Shown: positions 32,808-43,276 of the stretch, piece by piece
Layout: every line of letters starts with the position of its first letter
Position numbering within the stretch: the stretch's first letter is position 1
Assembly (NCBI GenBank): GCA_020061585.1
Contig: JAGUXX010000145.1
Span: 21,278-85,277, forward strand
Direction: 5' to 3'
Source: Betaproteobacteria bacterium
Lineage (GTDB): Bacteria; Pseudomonadota; Gammaproteobacteria; Burkholderiales; Thiobacillaceae
Length of the DNA stretch: 64,000 bases
Made by a program: the position numbers and the translations under genes
Notes under the pieces: generated by a model
What the model was told of the DNA's origin: nothing
Seen by the model: the letters and a program-made list of their open reading frames with translations, nothing else
Databases searched by the model: none

Positions 32808-35468
32808 ATGCGTCGAGGGTTTGCGGCTGTTGCCTTGATTCTGGGTCTGGCAGTGGCTTATTGGTTTGTTCAGCCTGGCAAGGAAGACGCTGCGTCGATC
32901 AAGGTAGATGCGCCCACCCCGATCAATCACGCATTGCTCGAAGCCGCGCGCGGCATGTTGGCGGCGCACCGGCAGATCATCGTGCTGCTGGCGGAGGAGA
33001 AGACCTTGTCGGCGTCGGAGCGGGCGGCGGCGCAGCAAGTGGGGCATGCCCTGTTCCATGAAAATCTGGCGCGTCTGGACCGCGCGGAAAGCGATCTGAC
33101 ACAACTTCTGGCGCGCCCGGGTGCGGCCCGCTTTTCGGAGCTGGAAGCGGTGCTGGCGTTCATCGAATCCGAACCCGGCCTGTACGACGCCGACCGGCTG
33201 GCGTTCCGCGAATTCCTGAATGACCTGCAGCGCGAGATCAGCCGCGACGGCAGTCTGCCCGCCGTGAAGTTGCACAAGCGGGTCGGCGAAGACCTGGAGG
33301 CGCTGGCCGAAATCGAGCGTCTGTACGACCGCGAGATTCGGGAAATCTTCAGCCGTTTCGATACCCGCGCCATCGTCCTCAAACGCGAGAAATGGTCGGA
33401 CTATGTCGCACATCTGAAGACGTTGTATCGCCGCGAGCAGATCCTGCGCGACCACGGCATCGTCCTGTCCGCCGCCTCGTCAGCCGCCCCGACGACACAA
33501 AGCAAGGACGCCAAGAATGACGTCCTGTTCGGCCGCGACCTGCCGCCCAAGACGCTGGTGCTGACCTTCGACGACGGCCCGCATCAACGCCATACCGGCG
33601 AGATCGCCGCCATCCTCGGCCAGTACGGCGTACCCGCCATCTTCTTCGAGGTCGGCCGCAATCTCGGCAGCCTCGACTCCGAGGGCCACATCAAACCCTC
33701 GCCGCGCGTTGCCGCCGCCCGCGCCCTGCTGGCGGACGGCCACCTGCTCGCCAATCACAGCCTGACCCACGCCAAATTGTCGGCCCAGGACGGCGACACC
33801 GTGCGCAAGGAAATCCTCACCACCGACAGCCTGCTCAAGGCGGTCGACCCCCAGCGCTCCAACCTGTTCCGCTTTCCCTACGGCGCCGGCAGCCCGGACG
33901 GTCTGAACACCCTGACGCAGGCCAGCTTGCGCTCGATGATGTGGAACATCGACTCGCTGGACTGGGCCGACCCCATCCCCAATTCCATCGCCGACCGGGT
34001 GTTGCGCGAAGTGGACGCGCAGGGCCGCGGCATCGTGCTGTTCCACGACATCCACGAACGCACGGTCAAGGCGCTGCCTCTGGTGCTGGGACGCTTGATG
34101 GCCGAGGGCTACCAGTTCGCCACCTGGGACGGGAGCGGTTACAAGCTCGCCAAGATCGCCACGCAGCCGACGCCGCCGCCGGTGGTCAATGCCGGTTATG
34201 GCCAATCCTGGGCCATCACCATCGGCATCGACGAATACAGCCACTGGCCCCGGCTGCAACACGCCGCCAAGGACGCCGAAACCATCGCCCAGACGCTGGT
34301 GGACAAGTTCGGCTTCAGCCCGGAGCGGGTGATCAGCCTGAACAACGGCGAGGCCACCCGCAACGGCATCCTGGCGGCGTTCCACGAGCGGCTGCAACAC
34401 AACCTGAAACCCGACGACCGGGTGTTCGTCTTTTTCGCCGGCCACGGCGCCACCCGGCACCTGAGTTCCGGCCGCGACCTGGGTTACATCGTGCCGGTGG
34501 ATTCCGACCCGGAGAAATTCGCCAGCGACGCCATACCGATGACCGAAATCCAGAACATCGCGGAAAGCCTGCCGGCGCGTCATGTGCTGTTCGTGATGGA
34601 CGCCTGTTACAGCGGCCTCGGCCTGACCCGGGGCGCCAGCGGTTTCCTGCACCAGAACGCGCGCCGCCAGGGCCGCCAGATGCTCACCGCCGGCGGCGCC
34701 GACCAGCTGGTGGCCGACGGCGGGCCGAATGGTCACTCCATCTTCACCTGGACCCTGCTGCAAGCGCTGGCCGGCCGCGCCGACCTGAACGGCGACAGCC
34801 TGATCACCGCCACCGAACTGGCCGCCTACATCGCCCCCAGCGTCGCCGGCGTCTCGCGCCAGACACCGGCCTTCGGCAGCCTGCCCGGATCGGAAGGCGG
34901 CGATTTCGTGTTCGAAGTGCGACCCGAAAACGAATTCCTCAGCGCCCAGAGCAGCCAGCTTTCCAGCGAAGCCATCGCCCTCAACAGCCGGCTCGACACC
35001 CTCCAGCCCCAAGCCACCGCCGCCGCCGCCAAACCCGCGCCAGTGGTGGTCACCGACCTGCAAGGCGAAGCGCAAAAAATCCAGTTGCCGAAAGCGGTGC
35101 CGCCCTCGCAACGCCAACTGGCGCAACGCGCCAACGACCGAGGCCTCCAGCTGTACAAGGAAAAACGCTATGCCGAAGCGGAAGCGGCGTTCACTGAAGC
35201 GCTGCGGCAGCGGCCGGATTTCGCGCTGGCCGCCAACAACCTCGGCTTCATCTACTTCCGCCAGCAAAAATATCCGGAAGCCGCGCGCTGGTTCGAGAAC
35301 ACCCTGAGCATGGACCGCTCCCGCGCCATCGCCTATCTGAACCTGGGCGACGCCTGGCTGAAAGCCGGCGAACCCGCCAAAGCCAAAACCGCGTTCCAGA
35401 CTTACCTGGAAATTGCCGCGAATGGGGCGGGGGCGGGGCATGCACGGCAGATGCTGGGGGAGTTGTAG
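32808..35468 (+). CDS. Fusion of polysaccharide deacetylase, caspase-like protease and TPR repeats
   Basis: An 886-residue protein. Layout: one N-terminal membrane anchor or signal (residues 5-22); a helical region (about 40-230); a NodB deacetylase domain (about 245-445) with TFDDGPHQRH, ANHSLTH, FRFPYGAG and FHDIHERT; a caspase/metacaspase-like domain (about 465-700) with ITIGIDEYSHWPRL, catalytic His in FFAGHGATRH (about 545) and catalytic Cys in MDACYSGLG (about 599), both intact; then a TPR array (about 775-884). The anchor suggests that all domains face the periplasm. Separate domains are each well known; I know of no described role for this combination. Ribosome site AGGGA; no operon partner. 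Confidence 0.9.
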   Translation: MRRGFAAVALILGLAVAYWFVQPGKEDAASIKVDAPTPINHALLEAARGMLAAHRQIIVLLAEEKTLSASERAAAQQVGHALFHENLARLDRAESDLTQLLARPGAARFSELEAVLAFIESEPGLYDADRLAFREFLNDLQREISRDGSLPAVKLHKRVGEDLEALAEIERLYDREIREIFSRFDTRAIVLKREKWSDYVAHLKTLYRREQILRDHGIVLSAASSAAPTTQSKDAKNDVLFGRDLPPKTLVLTFDDGPHQRHTGEIAAILGQYGVPAIFFEVGRNLGSLDSEGHIKPSPRVAAARALLADGHLLANHSLTHAKLSAQDGDTVRKEILTTDSLLKAVDPQRSNLFRFPYGAGSPDGLNTLTQASLRSMMWNIDSLDWADPIPNSIADRVLREVDAQGRGIVLFHDIHERTVKALPLVLGRLMAEGYQFATWDGSGYKLAKIATQPTPPPVVNAGYGQSWAITIGIDEYSHWPRLQHAAKDAETIAQTLVDKFGFSPERVISLNNGEATRNGILAAFHERLQHNLKPDDRVFVFFAGHGATRHLSSGRDLGYIVPVDSDPEKFASDAIPMTEIQNIAESLPARHVLFVMDACYSGLGLTRGASGFLHQNARRQGRQMLTAGGADQLVADGGPNGHSIFTWTLLQALAGRADLNGDSLITATELAAYIAPSVAGVSRQTPAFGSLPGSEGGDFVFEVRPENEFLSAQSSQLSSEAIALNSRLDTLQPQATAAAAKPAPVVVTDLQGEAQKIQLPKAVPPSQRQLAQRANDRGLQLYKEKRYAEAEAAFTEALRQRPDFALAANNLGFIYFRQQKYPEAARWFENTLSMDRSRAIAYLNLGDAWLKAGEPAKAKTAFQTYLEIAANGAGAGHARQMLGEL

Positions 35469-35507
35469 GCTGAAACCGGTGCCTATCAGCGGATTTCGCG
35501 CCTGAAA

Positions 35508-35529
35508 CGTAGGGTGCGCCGTGCGCACC
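35508..35529 (+). repeat. 22-nt REP-like repeat, single arm
   Basis: CGTAGGGTGCGCCGTGCGCA plus CC, identical to each arm of the palindrome at 46041-46099. It lies just after the deacetylase/caspase gene, at the left edge of the accessory region. Confidence 0.85.
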
Positions 35530-35620
35530 GTTTAACGCTGAATAGTGCGCAAGGCGCAGCCAAAAACTTGCACCCAGTGCTTGGAATAGGGGTTTTCCGC
35601 AAAATCAAAGGAGGTTCCGT

Positions 35621-36082
35621 ATGTCGCGCATCTCACTTTCAGTAAATGGCTCATCACCTTGGGAACGTTTGTTGGGTCATGCCCCGAACATCCTCGAACG
35701 ATGGACGGAACTCGAAAACGCCTTCTTTTCGAGCAATACCTTCACACCAGAATTACTCGAACAGGTACGCCGTGCTTTGGCTTTTGGAAATGGCTGCGAA
35801 TACTGCATGGCAAAAGCCGGTCGGCCTGACGAAGTCCAACCTGACCCGAGAACCTCTCTCGCAGTCGGATTTGCTCAGCTTTTCGTTCGAAACCACCAGG
35901 ACATAGATGACAGCGCCTTCAATGTGCTCAAGGCGGATTTTTCCGAAAAAGAAATTTCCGAATTGATTGCGTTCATGTCATTCATCTGCGCCTCGCAAAT
36001 GTTTGGCGCTTCGCTCGGTCTGAAACCCCGTGATACCTATGCGAACTACAGTCCTGTTCGGGTCAGCCCTCTATGTGGATAA
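35621..36082 (+). CDS. Carboxymuconolactone-decarboxylase/AhpD-fold protein
   Basis: A 153-residue, mostly helical protein with LLGHAPNILERWTELENAFF, LALFGN-like RRALAFGNGCEYCMAKAG (a CxxC thiol pair) and SEKEISELIAFMSFICASQMFGASL. This matches the AhpD/CMD family. The usual His after the CxxC is not present (CMAKAG), so classic AhpD proton relay may not apply. Preceded by AGGAGG at 35610-35615, a strong ribosome site. Stand-alone gene at the left end of the accessory region; role, perhaps thiol-based oxidant removal, is uncertain. Confidence 0.7.
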   Translation: MSRISLSVNGSSPWERLLGHAPNILERWTELENAFFSSNTFTPELLEQVRRALAFGNGCEYCMAKAGRPDEVQPDPRTSLAVGFAQLFVRNHQDIDDSAFNVLKADFSEKEISELIAFMSFICASQMFGASLGLKPRDTYANYSPVRVSPLCG

Positions 36083-36228
36083 GGGATCGCCAGCCCCTGG
36101 CCAGCCTGGGCATCAACGACAGCTTCAGCCCGATGATGGACATGGAATCAGACCATCTGGGGACTAAGGTAATGATGCTGTTCAGGGACGCGTGTCAGGC
36201 TGCTATTTCCTGCCATACCTAGCAACAT

Positions 36229-36266
36229 CTAACAATGTCTAACTGTTTTTAGATAGACTTTGTTAG
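36229..36266 (+). other. Imperfect hairpin upstream of the AAA ATPase gene
   Basis: CTAACAATGTCTAACT (36229-36244) is nearly the reverse complement of AGATAGACTTTGTTAG (36251-36266), around a 6-nt T-rich spacer, and ends 16 bp before the ATPase ATG. It is AT-rich and lacks a downstream T run, so an operator or 5'-UTR structure is more likely than a terminator. Confidence 0.5.
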
Positions 36267-36282
36267 AACTGACGAGAGCCCT

Positions 36283-37470
36283 ATGGACCCGATCAAAAAT
36301 CCTTTTTCTCCCGGCGCGGGTGCGCCACCGCCCGAGTTGGTCGGGCGTGACCCGTTGCTCGAACAAGCGCGCATCCTCCTCGGGCGCGTAAAACAGAAGC
36401 GCCCGGAAAAGAGCCTGCTGCTGACAGGTCTGCGCGGCGTCGGCAAGACCGTGCTGTTGAATGACATCGAACGGATGGCGAAGGGCGCTGGCTATCAGAC
36501 GATCTTGCTCGAAGCGCACGAGGAAAAGCCGCTGGGCGAGCTCATCTATCCGGCGCTGCGCGGGCTGCTTTACGAGCTGGACCGGGTGGCCGGTGCGGGT
36601 GACAAGGTCAAGCGTGGGCTGGCAGTGCTGCGCAGCTTTATCGGCAGCATCAAGCTGACGGTGGGCGATCTGGCGCTGGGCCTGGACATTGAGCCGGCCA
36701 AGGGCACCGCCGATAGCGGCGATCTGGAAATCGACCTGCCGAATCTGTTCGTGGCCATTGCCGAAGCGGCGGAAGAGCGACAGTCAGCCGTCGCCATCCT
36801 GATGGATGAAATCCAGTACCTGAGCCAGAAGGAACTGGGCGCCATCATCATGGCCATGCACAAGATGCAGCAGAAGCAGTTGCCGCTGGTGCTGCTCGCC
36901 GCCGGTTTGCCGGTACTTCCCGGCATGGCGGGGGAATCGAAGTCGTATGCCGAACGGCTGTTCAATTTTCCGGATATCGGGGCGCTGTCGGAAGCGGACG
37001 CAGCCAAGGCATTACGCGATCCCGCCCGCGATGCCGGCGTCGAATTTCAGGAAGACGCACTGCAAGAGGTGTTCCGCCTGACGCATGGCTACCCCTACTT
37101 CATCCAGGAATGGGGTTACCAAGCGTGGAATATCGCGGCGGCGAGCCCGATTACCTTGCAGACCGTGCGGACTGCGACGCCAGAGGTGATTCGACGGCTC
37201 GATAAAAACTTTTTCCGGGTGCGCTTTGATCGCCTGACACCGGGGGAGAAGAACTTTCTGCGCGCGATGGCTTATCTTGGCCCCGACCACCAGCGCACCG
37301 GCGACATCGCCACCGCCTTGGGCATGTCGGTCAAGGGGATCGGCCCAGTCCGTTCCAAGCTCATCAAGAAGGGAATGATTTACAGCCCCGCGCACGGCGA
37401 CATGGCGTTCACGGTGCCGCTGTTCGATGAATTCATGATTCGCGCAATCCCTGAATTTGCCCCGGCCTGA
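36283..37470 (+). CDS. AAA ATPase of the ATP-binding/winged-helix (STAND-like) type
   Basis: A 395-residue protein: N-terminal PIKNPFSPGAGAPPPELVGRD, Walker A LLLTGLRGVGKTVLLND (about residues 45-61), Walker B AVAILMDEIQYLS, arginine-rich sensor region near SYAERLFNF, and a C-terminal winged-helix part (LTPGEKNFLRAMAYLGPD, then RSKLIKKGMIYSPAHGDMAFTVPLFDEFM). Such proteins are common in accessory regions, and many are orphan. No partner is obvious. The first about 90 bp of the gene recur in decayed form at 40281-40375, showing duplication or insertion around this gene. Function unknown. Confidence 0.8.
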   Translation: MDPIKNPFSPGAGAPPPELVGRDPLLEQARILLGRVKQKRPEKSLLLTGLRGVGKTVLLNDIERMAKGAGYQTILLEAHEEKPLGELIYPALRGLLYELDRVAGAGDKVKRGLAVLRSFIGSIKLTVGDLALGLDIEPAKGTADSGDLEIDLPNLFVAIAEAAEERQSAVAILMDEIQYLSQKELGAIIMAMHKMQQKQLPLVLLAAGLPVLPGMAGESKSYAERLFNFPDIGALSEADAAKALRDPARDAGVEFQEDALQEVFRLTHGYPYFIQEWGYQAWNIAAASPITLQTVRTATPEVIRRLDKNFFRVRFDRLTPGEKNFLRAMAYLGPDHQRTGDIATALGMSVKGIGPVRSKLIKKGMIYSPAHGDMAFTVPLFDEFMIRAIPEFAPA

Positions 37471-37604
37471 AACGGTGTCTCCCCACGCTCAAGCGTGAAT
37501 CCGGGCGCTACGCTAAAGTTCACCCTGGCTTGAGCTTGTAGAACACGGCGGCCAGAATGGTAAAAGCCGTGGTTTTTTACCTGTTGCCCTGATTCGCAGA
37601 AAGG

Positions 37605-37901
37605 ATGTCCATGCGTCCGTCCGTTGCTCTCGACATGAAGCGAAATGCAGTACGTGAAGCCGCCAGCCGCTTCCACACGGCGAACCCGCGCGTGTTCGGT
37701 TCGGCCCTGCATGGCACCGACCGTGACGGAAGCGACCTCGACCTGCTGGTTGATGCCTTGCCAGGGGCAACGTTGTTCGACCTGGGTGGTTTGCAGTACG
37801 AGTTGGAAACGCTGCTCGGCGCCCAGGTCGATTTGCTGACCCCGACAGACCTGCCCCCGAAATTTCGTTCCAAGGTGCTTGCGGAAGCGCAGCCGGTATG
37901 A
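37605..37901 (+). CDS. mntA: MntA-type minimal nucleotidyltransferase (antitoxin)
   Basis: A 98-residue protein with the nucleotidyltransferase core VFGSALHGTDRDGSDLDLLVD (GSx10DxD) and a later QVDLLTP strand with the third acidic residue. In MntA/HepT pairs this enzyme AMPylates and so silences the HEPN RNase. ATG at 37605, with an in-frame alternative at 37611. The TGA overlaps the ATG of the HEPN gene (ATGA at 37898), as usual in such pairs. Confidence 0.88.
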   Translation: MSMRPSVALDMKRNAVREAASRFHTANPRVFGSALHGTDRDGSDLDLLVDALPGATLFDLGGLQYELETLLGAQVDLLTPTDLPPKFRSKVLAEAQPV

Positions 37902-38266
37902 AGGTGAATCGACTTTCCGATTAACTCGAACACATGCAACTGGCTGCGACGGATGCGTGCAGCTTCGTGGACGGCTTGACCAAGGACGAGTTCATTGCGG
38001 ACAAACGCACCCAACAAGCGGTCATCATGAGCATCATCATCCTTGGCGAAGCGGCCACCAAGGCGATGGACAGCTACGCAAACTTCGCGCAGGCGCATCC
38101 CGAAGTGCCTTGGCGCAGCATGCAAGGCATGCGCAACCGTATTGCCCACGGCTACTTCGACATCAACCTCGATATCGTGTGGGACACCGTACAAATGGCG
38201 CTGCCGGGTTTGCTGAAGCAACTGCCCGCAGTATGTCAGGCAGCAAAAATCGAAGATTCGCCATGA
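37898..38266 (+). pseudogene. hepT: HepT-type HEPN toxin gene with a stop at codon 9
   Basis: Reading from the coupled ATG at 37898 gives MKVNRLSD, then TAA at 37922-37924, then LEHMQLAATDAC; the normal family start reads on through a Tyr at this place. The ATG at 37934 (codon 13) could restart translation and yields 110 residues that keep the HEPN fold and the RNase motif RNRIAHGYF (R-x4-H). The toxin is therefore either inactivated, or made at low level from the second ATG and missing 12 N-terminal residues. The MntA partner is intact. Confidence 0.8.
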
Positions 38267-38305
38267 CAGTGGATGAGCTTGGCAGTGCAAACCGTGGTCT
38301 GTCCC

Positions 38306-38340
38306 CTGTTGTTCTGCTGTTGTTACTGCTGTTGTTACTG
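38306..38340 (+). repeat. Three tandem copies of a 12-bp unit
   Basis: CTGTTGTTACTG at 38317-38328 and 38329-38340, preceded by an 11-bp variant CTGTTGTTCTG at 38306-38316. It lies in the 190-bp gap between the HEPN gene and the Xre-ImmA gene. Confidence 0.85.
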
Positions 38341-38403: not shown

Positions 38404-38446
38404 AAAACTTGATAAAACTTGATTGCACGCCTTTTCCAAATATAAT
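38404..38446 (+). promoter_or_regulatory. Promoter with tandem repeat operator for the Xre-ImmA gene
   Basis: TTGATT (38419-38424) and TATAAT (38441-38446) are separated by 16 bp, a strong sigma-70 promoter. Two exact copies of AAAACTTGAT (38404-38413 and 38414-38423) lie head to tail over the -35 and are the likely binding site of the Xre product. The -10 ends only 7 bp before the ATG at 38454, so the transcript would be leaderless or nearly so. Confidence 0.75.
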
Positions 38447-38453
38447 TTCGTGC

Positions 38454-39578
38454 ATGGAAAAAGCCCTGAATTTCAACGCAATCCAGAGCGCATTGACCGC
38501 TCAAGGGATGAACCAGAAACAGTTGGCGGAAGCAGTCGGCACATCATCCCAATCGGTGACCAACTGGCTCAAGGGGAAGGACTTTCCCCGCCCGGCCGCA
38601 CTTCTCAAACTAGCCACCACGCTTAGCCTGACGTTTGAACAACTCGTTCAGGTCAACGATCCAGGGCGGCCTGTAGTCGCATATCGCAAGAAGGCGAATG
38701 CCAAAACAACCGCCGTGCATTTTGCCAAGGCGGAAAGCATCGGCATGCTGCTCAAACCGCTGGTCGCCTACCTGCCTGAAATTCAAGCGTTGCGCACGTT
38801 GATAACGTCCCCATCAACCGATTACGACAAGCTTCAGATCGTCGTATCGCAAACCCGAAATCGGCTGGGCATCGGACAACAAGCGGTGCTGGGGTACGAA
38901 AACCTCATCGGCGAATTCAAGGATTGCGGCGCTGTTCTGGTTCCCGTGCTTTGGGGTGCCAAGGGCAATCATGAAAACGCCCTGCATATCCGACTGCCGC
39001 AAGAAGATGTCACCTTCATCTTCCTCAATCTCGATACCCGGCTGGAAGACTTCAAATTCTGGATGGCCCATGAATTGGCCCATGTGCTTACCCCGGACCT
39101 GTCCGGCAGCAACGCAGGTGAGGATTTTGCCGACGCCTTCGCCGGCGCGCTGCTGTACCCGAAAGCGTGCGCCGAGTCCGCCTATCGGGAGGCCGTCCGG
39201 CATACGAAACCCGAGAGCGCGATCAAGGTGCTGATAGGCCAAGCCGATGCGCACATGATCTCGTTGAACACCGTCTATCAACAGGTCCGGCATTACGCCG
39301 CGTCGTCCGGCATTACGCCGCTTCCCATCCAGGAAACAGCCATACACGCAGTGCGCAACAGCCTGCGCGGGGCATTGGTCAGCGAAGCCCTGTTCGACCC
39401 GATGCCACCCTCGCCACAACGCTATATCGCCGCCTGCGAAAACACCTTCCAGACCGACTTCTTCCATGCGATAAAACGCATGATCGTCGCAAACGGCACC
39501 GGCGCAGCCTATATCCAACAAGTGCTGGATACCTCTTTGCAGGATGCCGTTGCTTTCCACGAGGCGTTGCGCCATTGA
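38454..39578 (+). CDS. Xre-family regulator fused to ImmA/IrrE metallopeptidase
   Basis: A 374-residue protein: N-terminal HTH (FNAIQSALTAQGMNQKQLAEAVGTSSQSVTNWLKG) and a COG2856-type peptidase domain with the zinc motif MAHELAHVLTP near residue 206 and EDFADAFAGALLYP with the third ligand region. Start at the ATG 38454, because the in-frame TTG at 38409 lies upstream of the promoter's -35. Proteins of this build are antitoxin-like repressors next to toxin genes; here the next gene, a PIN-like protein, begins at TTG overlapping this stop. Metal motif intact. Confidence 0.9.
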   Translation: MEKALNFNAIQSALTAQGMNQKQLAEAVGTSSQSVTNWLKGKDFPRPAALLKLATTLSLTFEQLVQVNDPGRPVVAYRKKANAKTTAVHFAKAESIGMLLKPLVAYLPEIQALRTLITSPSTDYDKLQIVVSQTRNRLGIGQQAVLGYENLIGEFKDCGAVLVPVLWGAKGNHENALHIRLPQEDVTFIFLNLDTRLEDFKFWMAHELAHVLTPDLSGSNAGEDFADAFAGALLYPKACAESAYREAVRHTKPESAIKVLIGQADAHMISLNTVYQQVRHYAASSGITPLPIQETAIHAVRNSLRGALVSEALFDPMPPSPQRYIAACENTFQTDFFHAIKRMIVANGTGAAYIQQVLDTSLQDAVAFHEALRH

Positions 39579-40562: not shown

Positions 40563-41531
40563 ATGAGCAACCCGGTCACCTACCTCGATCCATCCCAGCT
40601 TCCCAAGAATCTGTGGGACCCCGACACAGGCCTACTTCATATTCCAGAAAGCCTCGCCAGATGCTACGAAGCTCTGATCGACCGTCACGGCTTGCGTGAA
40701 CTTGCTAGCTCCAGAACGCGTGATGACTCGCCCATAGGGGGCATCGATCAAGTCAGCACGGATAAGCATTTCGCGCAGCAGTTCGACAACTCGGTCGCAC
40801 GCGCCCAACTCTCTTTGACCAATGTGACGGGTGAAGTCGATGCGGCGTCGGATGCACTCGTGTGTGCGTTGAGTGCTGGCGCAATCTGCCTGACGGACGC
40901 CCCCTGCGGAGCCGGTGCTGCATCGTTGGCCTTCCTCAGCACCATCGCGGAATTGCGCAAGCAGGATGTGCTTCCTCGTTTGCCGCTGGAGGTAAGGCTA
41001 CTTGGGGCGGAGATTTCACCCTTTGCCCGTGATTACGCGAGGCAACTTCTGGAGGACATGCGCCCTTTTCTGGAGACCCAGGCGATCTTCCTGAGTGAAC
41101 AACTCCTAGAGTGGGACGCAACCGACCGGCTCAGTAATACCGATCTGATCCAGGCAATGGTTCGCGGCTGCCCAGAACTCAACAACCGGCTTCTTGTCAT
41201 CGCGAACTTCAGCGGCTTCCTATCCCAGCGAGGAAAACAGAAAGACGTCGAGCCACAGTTGGAGGAGCTGTTCAGACATACGTCTGGGCCGGGAAACGTC
41301 GCCATTTGGATAGAGCCCCAAATGAACAAGGTGAATTCTGACGGTGGGATATTTCACTGGTTGGCCCAGTTAACCCCCCTGAAGTGGCGCAGGTTTGCTC
41401 AACTGGCAACGGGTGGAGAAGCTAGCCCACCTTTTATGACTTCAAGCGTGAAGTTCGAATCACAGCTCGCGTTGGGGCGGCCACACCCGATCCGGCTGGC
41501 GGTTATGCGACTTGATTTGGAGCGCTCCTGA
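40563..41531 (+). CDS. Methyltransferase-like protein coupled to a reverse transcriptase
   Basis: A 322-residue protein with the layout of a class-I SAM-dependent methyltransferase: glycine-rich loop ICLTDAPCGAGAASLAFL (motif I), acidic residue after the second strand in LLGAEISPFARDYARQLLEDM, and RLLVIANFSGFLSQ in the position of motif IV. The rest is not familiar, and methyl transfer is a fold-based guess. The TGA overlaps the ATG of the RT gene as TGATG, so the two proteins are made together. Base composition is lower in GC than the neighbouring core genes. Confidence 0.55.
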   Translation: MSNPVTYLDPSQLPKNLWDPDTGLLHIPESLARCYEALIDRHGLRELASSRTRDDSPIGGIDQVSTDKHFAQQFDNSVARAQLSLTNVTGEVDAASDALVCALSAGAICLTDAPCGAGAASLAFLSTIAELRKQDVLPRLPLEVRLLGAEISPFARDYARQLLEDMRPFLETQAIFLSEQLLEWDATDRLSNTDLIQAMVRGCPELNNRLLVIANFSGFLSQRGKQKDVEPQLEELFRHTSGPGNVAIWIEPQMNKVNSDGGIFHWLAQLTPLKWRRFAQLATGGEASPPFMTSSVKFESQLALGRPHPIRLAVMRLDLERS

Positions 41532-43276
41532 TGCCACGTCAACGTGCCGGCGTCCTGGCGGTCCGAGCCGTAAACCAATACCGTCGCCGGGATGTACTTT
41601 CCTACCTGGCCCTGCGTTATTACCTGAACAACGAAGCCGCGCGCACGGATCGCTGGGCGAACGAAGTCGCTACAGACCTGGTGTTGAAGCGTTCAGATCA
41701 GCCATATTTCCGGGCGTACCACTTCAAGGATGGAAACCACCGGATGGGAGTGGAACATCGCCCGATGTTTCTTCCTTGTGCGAATGAAGCCTTGGCCGAG
41801 GCAGCGCTCCTTGCCGAATGTGCCCGCCACCCAATAGTGTTTGGTAATCCTGATTTCGTATTCAGCTACCAACTGGCGACCGGGGAAGATCGCTCGGGGA
41901 TTTTTGGTCATTACTCTGCCGGCCTTCGCAATCGCCATGATGCTATAGCCCAGGCATGCGATGACTGTCCTGAAGGAACTGTCCGCTACCTCGACCTGAA
42001 GAAATTCTATCCATCTGTTCACCCCGATCTGGCATTGAAAGCATGGCGCAAGGCCGCTGACCAGGCAGAAATCGCGCCTCGGTGGAGGGAGTTGGGGGAC
42101 AAGTTCATTGGCGACCATGCCAAAGCAACGGATGGCCAGAAGCCCAGCATACTGACCGGCCCGATGTTCAGCCATCTGATCGGCAACCTGGTACTCCGCG
42201 ATATCGACGCTCAGCTTGCTGGCCTCAATGGCGTTAAATATTTCCGTTATGTCGATGACATCACGCTGGTAGGACGTGACGAGCAGATCAGGGCTGCGGT
42301 CAAGACAATACGGTCGATCCTTGGGGAGCTTGGCCTCAAGGCGCACGACGACGACTCGCCCAAGAGTTTGATCGTACCCTGCTCGGAATGGGTTCAAGGC
42401 AGGCATGACTTTCAAGATCGTCGTCGGCCGGTATCGTGGAAAACACTAATCGGTGACCTCAAGAGGCACCTACTTGCCCATCCTGATGCGCGAGATTCGC
42501 TTCATGATGCCTTTGTCGGTGAAGGCATGCGCATCCCTGTTCGAGACTACTCCGAGGCTATTTTCGAGCGAGGCTACCTGCAAAAAATTCAAGAATGGTC
42601 GCGGTTCCGCTGGTTCTGGCGAAACAAGCGGAAGGTCTCTACTGATTCCCTGATTGATCAGGCACGACAACTGCGAATCCAGTTTGAATCTGAATTTAAG
42701 GAACTCGTGGGGGAATACCAATCTGCCAACACTTATGGCAAGAAACGGCTCACCCCAAAGATCAGGTATCGCTCTGGGCGTCTTACCTACTTGGCTACGG
42801 ACGACGCATTGTTCGATCTGGCGAAAATTGCTGACTCTGTTCCCGAGCTCCATCTACAGTCGATGGTCATGGCTGCGACGGCAACAAGGAAGTTAGACGG
42901 GCTCCTGGAACTTGGAACCAATGCCGCTCAGGCGGTTGCTCAACCGCTCAGGGCTGCCGGCAAAACTGCTCATATTTCACTGCAAAGTCTTTCCGATGCA
43001 CAGATGCAAGCCCTGGCGGTTTTTCAATTGAACGGTGTGGCTGTCCAGCGTCCACCCACTCTTGATGACCAGCGATCCGAAATGCTCGTTTTTTCCGAGC
43101 AAGGAGGTACGCCGAAATTGATGAGGTCTCCAGACAAGTTCATTAGAGAAATTGCCTGCTTGCATGGCCTGAGTAAGCTGCCGCGGCATCCCTCAATCCT
43201 AGAAAGTGTGTTTGATGAGGATGAAGAGCTAGCAGTGGACGCTGTGGAACAGTTGCAAGAATCCATTTCGCTGTGA
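41531..43276 (+). CDS. Reverse transcriptase of the defence/unknown-group type
   Basis: A 581-residue protein. The RT palm occupies about residues 150-290: TVRYLDLKKFYPSVHPDLALKA (first catalytic Asp), ILTGPMFSHLIGNLVLRDID (motif B), YFRYVDDITLVG (catalytic YVDD, about 240-243) and LKAHDDDSPKSL (motif D region). An N-terminal extension of about 150 residues and a C-terminal region of about 290 mostly helical residues flank it. No maturase or endonuclease domain and no group II intron RNA are visible, so it resembles defence-associated RTs rather than intron RTs. The class is not assignable by eye. Coupled to the methyltransferase-like gene. Confidence 0.88.
   Translation: MPRQRAGVLAVRAVNQYRRRDVLSYLALRYYLNNEAARTDRWANEVATDLVLKRSDQPYFRAYHFKDGNHRMGVEHRPMFLPCANEALAEAALLAECARHPIVFGNPDFVFSYQLATGEDRSGIFGHYSAGLRNRHDAIAQACDDCPEGTVRYLDLKKFYPSVHPDLALKAWRKAADQAEIAPRWRELGDKFIGDHAKATDGQKPSILTGPMFSHLIGNLVLRDIDAQLAGLNGVKYFRYVDDITLVGRDEQIRAAVKTIRSILGELGLKAHDDDSPKSLIVPCSEWVQGRHDFQDRRRPVSWKTLIGDLKRHLLAHPDARDSLHDAFVGEGMRIPVRDYSEAIFERGYLQKIQEWSRFRWFWRNKRKVSTDSLIDQARQLRIQFESEFKELVGEYQSANTYGKKRLTPKIRYRSGRLTYLATDDALFDLAKIADSVPELHLQSMVMAATATRKLDGLLELGTNAAQAVAQPLRAAGKTAHISLQSLSDAQMQALAVFQLNGVAVQRPPTLDDQRSEMLVFSEQGGTPKLMRSPDKFIREIACLHGLSKLPRHPSILESVFDEDEELAVDAVEQLQESISL

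Follow-up and report, generated by a model that had tools for sequence, protein, structure and literature searches.

Background

Prokaryotic metacaspases that carry a polysaccharide deacetylase domain numbered 17 in a 2012 survey (Asplund-Samuelsson et al. 2012; PMC3501461), which introduced the name 'Xanthomonas-type metacaspase' for the architecture in which a PF01522 domain is followed by a metacaspase domain and TPRs. In that survey the type occurred in Xanthomonas, Xylella, Stenotrophomonas and two Acidobacteria, and trmE/mnmE adjoined the gene in Xanthomonas, Xylella and Stenotrophomonas, an operon arrangement that stands outside the definition of the architecture. The survey tied the architecture to the X. 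campestris pv. glycines 'caspase' (citing Raju et al. 2007) and to programmed cell death (PCD); N-terminal helices were regarded in general as possible signal peptides and the periplasm went unmentioned. When we searched the open-access literature for more recent studies of the family, nothing came up beyond this survey and a related Xanthomonas paper.

A complete gene in the window (the whole 64,000-nt stretch of contig JAGUXX010000145.1 that was analysed, from a Thiobacillaceae genome, GCA_020061585.1) encodes an 886-aa protein of this kind (32808–35468; this and all other feature coordinates are on the + strand). The reading frame has no internal stops and, from the ORF, Pfam, alignment and dN/dS together, the layout is an anchor, a helical domain, a NodB/CE4 deacetylase domain, a metacaspase domain and TPRs. 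The first-pass annotation had recognised NodB, caspase-like and TPR parts in one chain, and Pfam finds all three. It had also stated that no description of this combination was known, which is wrong, since the architecture was described and named in 2012 (PMC3501461). Prior characterisation of the architecture was one of the outcomes that the annotation itself had named as refuting, and at the level of description this applies. The window protein almost certainly belongs to the Xanthomonas-type metacaspase family, as a member from Betaproteobacteria. Like the X. campestris pv. glycines protein (GI 88792532), it has the order PF01522, metacaspase and 1–3 TPRs, a size of ∼97–100 kDa and a conserved His/Cys dyad, and it is 59–61% identical over nearly the full length to Xanthomonas, Stenotrophomonas and Pseudoxanthomonas proteins (among L072–L086). 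Unlike the described members, it comes from Betaproteobacteria, its anchor has no lipobox and mnmE does not adjoin the gene. The domain combination is already known; what is new is the lineage and a different reading of location (outside the cytoplasm) and of specificity.

The deacetylase and helical domains

The NodB/CE4 domain (residues 244–441; 33537–34130) was delimited from Pfam, motifs, alignment and structural Z scores, with Polysacc_deac_1 matching residues 244–374 (E 3.6e-22). All five NodB motifs that the first-pass annotation had called intact were found: TFDDG (253–257), HSLTH (317–321), RFPYG (355–359), DSLDWAD (382–388) and LFHD (411–414), with D255/D256, H317, H321 and H413 in place. 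The model of this domain gave a structural Z of 23–25 to PgdA, Bc1960 and 7fbw, confirming the CE4 fold. PgdA (2c1g) and Bc1960 (4l1g) have this fold and these motifs in common with the window protein, but both are without a protease domain. The best Foldseek match to the window model was Bd3279 of Bdellovibrio (5jp6), a peptidoglycan GlcNAc deacetylase in which a helical N-terminal domain partly covers the active site (PMC4876506). Among the best structural neighbours of the NodB domain are the peptidoglycan GlcNAc deacetylases PgdA, Bc1960 and Bd3279.

As in Bd3279, which is 34% identical over the CE4 domain and, unlike the window protein, has neither caspase nor TPR, an all-helical domain precedes CE4. 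This conserved domain (residues ∼41–220; 32928–33467) was defined from AlphaFold2 models (pLDDT mostly 70–90) and a phmmer/Foldseek match to 5jp6. The Foldseek alignment spans the helical and CE4 domains, but with an rmsd of 19, and the VIA row to 5jp6 covers the CE4 domain only. Because of this rmsd over two domains, a cap in common with Bd3279 is a lead only, and the resemblance in position between the modelled helical domain and the Bd3279 cap is suggestive. Four relatives (L095–L098) consist of an exported helical domain and NodB without a caspase, 33–38% identical to the N-terminal half of the window protein, and these stand-alone forms suggest that the family arose by modular fusion. In a divergent relative (L094; G366:C7), the NodB and caspase parts lie in two consecutive ORFs with a stop and a frame change between them, which may be a pseudogene, a sequencing error or a natural split.

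The metacaspase and TPR domains

The metacaspase domain (Peptidase_C14; residues ∼463–703; 34194–34916; Pfam and alignment) belongs by its match to the C14 caspase/metacaspase family, with Pfam covering residues 467–659 (E 7.9e-17); the PADLOC 'caspase' model matches the p20 region only. Both catalytic residues are intact, as the first-pass annotation had it, although its numbering ('about 545/599') was one off: the motifs are GHG (545–547) and DACYSG (598–603), and the dyad is His546 (codon 34443–34445) and Cys600 (codon 34605–34607). Metacaspases and orthocaspases (C14B) likewise have GHG and DxCxSG motifs and acidic S1 residues; unlike them, the window protein is fused to a deacetylase and, from its N-terminus, predicted to be exported. 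In sequence it is weakly similar to the metacaspases of known structure (best E 0.002).

In addition to the dyad, the p20 domain has two acidic residues, Asp489 and Asp598, that match the acidic S1 residues in an alignment to metacaspase-1 and are candidates for the S1 pocket. Of the two, Asp598 is fully conserved and Asp489 almost fully. Two acidic S1 residues set a basic (Arg/Lys) P1 specificity (PMC6426788), and on this basis the domain is predicted to be an Arg/Lys-specific protease. Residues 659–670 (DLNGDSLITATE; 34782–34817) fit an EF-hand loop (D1, N3, D5, E12), and D659, N661, G662, D663 and E670 are invariant in 81/81 aligned sequences. L100 and L101, which are also bacterial C14 proteins, have similar EF-hand-like loops. 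Binding of Ca2+ by the metacaspase, and dependence on it, are predictions from this loop. In eukaryotic type I metacaspases, the Ca2+ site is elsewhere than at the position of the EF-hand-like loop. The same genome encodes five further Peptidase_C14 proteins (on contigs C188, C35 (two), C117 and C192); L101, encoded on C192, is a fusion with an FGE-sulfatase domain.

The caspase region was poorly folded in the full-length AlphaFold2 model (pLDDT <50 over residues 599–645 and 655–751), and since the low values extend over caspase and linker, no domain interface is claimed. No caspase structure was among the listed fold matches of this model, which is uninformative for so poorly modelled a region. 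The TPR domain (residues ∼771–872; 35118–35423), with about three repeats, was placed by Pfam (TPR_1/TPR_2 from residue 777 onward; E about 5e-13) and structural matches.

Conservation and selection

Scanning the contigs of GTDB genomes yielded 158 relatives, the best 80 of which were fetched. All of these 80 are full-length and 57–92% identical to the window protein. Across the resulting 81 sequences, D255, D256, H317, H321, R355, D385, W386, H413, H546 and C600 are invariant, and variation within the motifs is conservative (T253/S, L319, T320/S, I381/V and L384/M). Loss of the caspase residues in most homologues, which the first-pass annotation had proposed as a check, was not seen: the His/Cys dyad is present in 81/81. 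The retention of the catalytic residues in every sequence favours an active enzyme. The linker between NodB and caspase (residues 441–462) is variable in the same alignment.

Selection was examined by NG86 against the nearest relative (L007; 92% identical). The dN/dS was 0.024/0.20 (about 0.12) for NodB, 0.009/0.098 (about 0.09) for the caspase region and 0.004/0.16 (about 0.02) for the TPR region. The window protein is genuine, evolves under purifying selection and is not a chance ORF.

Export signals

The first-pass annotation had placed a membrane anchor at the start of the protein, and a hydrophobic segment (GFAAVALILGLAVAYWFV) is found there (residues ∼4–22; 32817–32873). As read from the sequence, this segment has no lipobox and would be a signal anchor or an uncleaved signal. 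A single hydrophobic segment lies at the N-terminus of all members (the window protein and 80 relatives). In thirteen of them the lipobox position is occupied by Cys, in eight with a strict LAGC-like pattern; these 13 fall together on one side of a branch with a support of 97, and all but L084 are labelled Lysobacteraceae (= Xanthomonadaceae) in the tree. In the betaproteobacterial members, including that of the window, the segment is found at the same position but lacks a lipobox, and a divergent member (L093) starts with a cleavable-type signal peptide. That homologous chains carry export signals of three kinds is strong, if indirect, evidence that the deacetylase, the protease and the TPRs are all outside the cytoplasm, and an extracytoplasmic location of the window protein is very probable. 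The proposal in the first-pass annotation of a link from the envelope to proteolysis or cell death is in part sustained, as a connection between envelope and proteolysis is plausible and fits this location; cell death has no support here.

Distribution and gene neighbourhood

The Xanthomonas-type family is common in Betaproteobacteria, with members in Massilia, Janthinobacterium, Polaromonas and Undibacterium. In a sample of 300 whole genomes from the order of the window (cut-off E ≤ 1e-30), 12 matched: six with all three domains (a contig end truncates one of them), four with just the N-terminal half and two with just a caspase domain. Matches were found in 8/398 genomes sampled from the phylum, in 25/198 genomes of the family of G387 (taken to be Xanthomonadaceae; 23 intact and two broken, G757 and G856) and in 44/195 genomes of the family of G269 (38 intact, two with stops, G868 and G870, and four restricted to the N-terminal half). 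The full protein is present in only 2/23 genomes of the genus to which the window belongs, and in the tree the window protein and L007 stand apart from the Thiobacillus/Hydrogenophilales rows (L008, L009 and L013). Such patchy occurrence fits loss, horizontal transfer or both.

In one relative (L072) the gene is flanked by YidC and MnmE (Pfam), and the same two neighbour families were found in 11 and 12 loci. When the loci of the relatives were compared, no conserved operon partner was seen outside this yidC/mnmE (Xanthomonadaceae-type) group. In the window, the neighbours are YdjM upstream and a CMD-like gene downstream, and mnmE does not adjoin. With no shared neighbourhood beyond that group, neither a partner nor a pathway indicates the substrate.

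Several genes downstream in the window are defence-like. Collinearity with L007 breaks off at the gene's stop codon and picks up again at position 38338 of the window; the ∼2.9 kb between (35467–38338; a CMD-like gene, an AAA ATPase and MntA/HepT) is absent from that site in L007. This segment includes an MntA-like nucleotidyltransferase (37605–37901, +; PADLOC PDC-S09, E 1.1e-26) and a HepT-like gene (37934–38266, +; PF01934, E 1.8e-26), together likely an MntA/HepT toxin-antitoxin pair. Further downstream are a protein with an HTH and an IrrE-like peptidase (M78) domain and weak PADLOC RmrA matches (38409–39578, +), and a reverse transcriptase gene with a full-length match to PADLOC RT_UG36 (41531–43276, +; E 1.2e-183), directly preceded by a gene with a partial RT_UG35 match (40563–41531, +; E 3.9e-10). 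The RT_UG36-like and RT_UG35-like genes are candidate DRT-type defence genes. An anti-phage role, considered on account of these neighbours, was rejected: part of the defence-like genes are absent directly downstream in L007 and none recurs in the family, so they are not part of the feature.

Proposed function and alternatives

The explanation that we favour, at a probability of roughly 55%, is that the window protein is an exported, membrane-tethered envelope protein in which a metacaspase controls a periplasmic GlcNAc deacetylase or acts as its partner. Its location and intact active sites are supported by sequence; the substrate, control by Ca2+ and coupling we infer. The CE4 domain would remove acetyl groups from GlcNAc in an envelope glycan, most likely peptidoglycan, with the helical N-terminal domain modulating access to its active site. 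The metacaspase would cut after Arg/Lys, probably upon binding Ca2+, and its target may be its own chain or a partner protein bound to the TPRs. Cleavage could then switch or release deacetylation, or couple it to the turnover of an envelope protein. We put the coupling of protease and deacetylase forward tentatively, at somewhat less than even odds. A more specific version, in which the protein is an envelope-stress switch whose extracytoplasmic Ca2+-gated metacaspase governs, in cis, a tethered peptidoglycan deacetylase, and in which the Xanthomonas 'caspase' would be an envelope enzyme and not a death protease, is speculative, and we give it about one chance in four.

The strongest competitor, to which we attach a lower but appreciable likelihood, is that the two enzymes are independent: CE4 would act on an exported or capsular polysaccharide rather than on peptidoglycan, and the caspase/TPR part would be an uncoupled general periplasmic protease or scaffold. 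Same-fold CE4 domains among the structural neighbours also act on chitin and xylan, the variable linker (441–462) allows independence, and N-terminal half and caspase domains are also found separately. However, the full-length layout in 80/80 fetched relatives (the best 80 of 158) and purifying selection in every domain suggest that the domains are needed together.

The proposal made for X. campestris, a cytoplasmic caspase-3-like executioner of PCD with PARP-like activity, is unlikely to hold for this protein, judging from the open-access accounts (PMC3501461 and PMC4006831). It draws on work in X. campestris pv. glycines cited in PMC3501461 (cross-reaction with a caspase antibody, absence of PCD in caspase-deficient mutants and PARP-like activity) and on DEVDase activity in dying Xcc cells (PMC4006831). 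Yet the export signals, among which the Xanthomonadaceae-type clade itself has lipoboxes, would put the protease outside the cytoplasm, and the predicted acidic S1 pocket calls for cleavage after Arg/Lys, whereas the assay substrates (DEVD) present Asp (PMC4006831). Moreover, the NodB domain, for which PARP similarity had been claimed, is an ordinary CE4 deacetylase (Z 23–25), and PMC4006831 mentions neither metacaspase nor PARP and does not attribute the activity to this gene.

Slightly less probable again is a catalytically silent caspase domain serving as a scaffold. Pseudo-orthocaspases do exist in other bacteria (PMC6426788), but here His546/Cys600 and the S1 residues are invariant or nearly so and the dN/dS of the region is about 0.09. 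Finally, a frameshift or assembly chimera fusing separate genes, conceivable in a source genome fragmented into 336 contigs, is ruled out for practical purposes by 80 full-length relatives, i.e. the 92% identical L007 orthologue and 79 others.

Implications for the family

With the location argued here, an acidic S1 pocket and an invariant EF-hand-like loop, the long-standing claim that a bacterial caspase executes PCD in Xanthomonas becomes directly testable. Regulated deacetylation of an envelope glycan is on offer as an alternative to a death protease, and the members in Massilia, Janthinobacterium, Polaromonas and Undibacterium give a broader choice of organisms for laboratory work.
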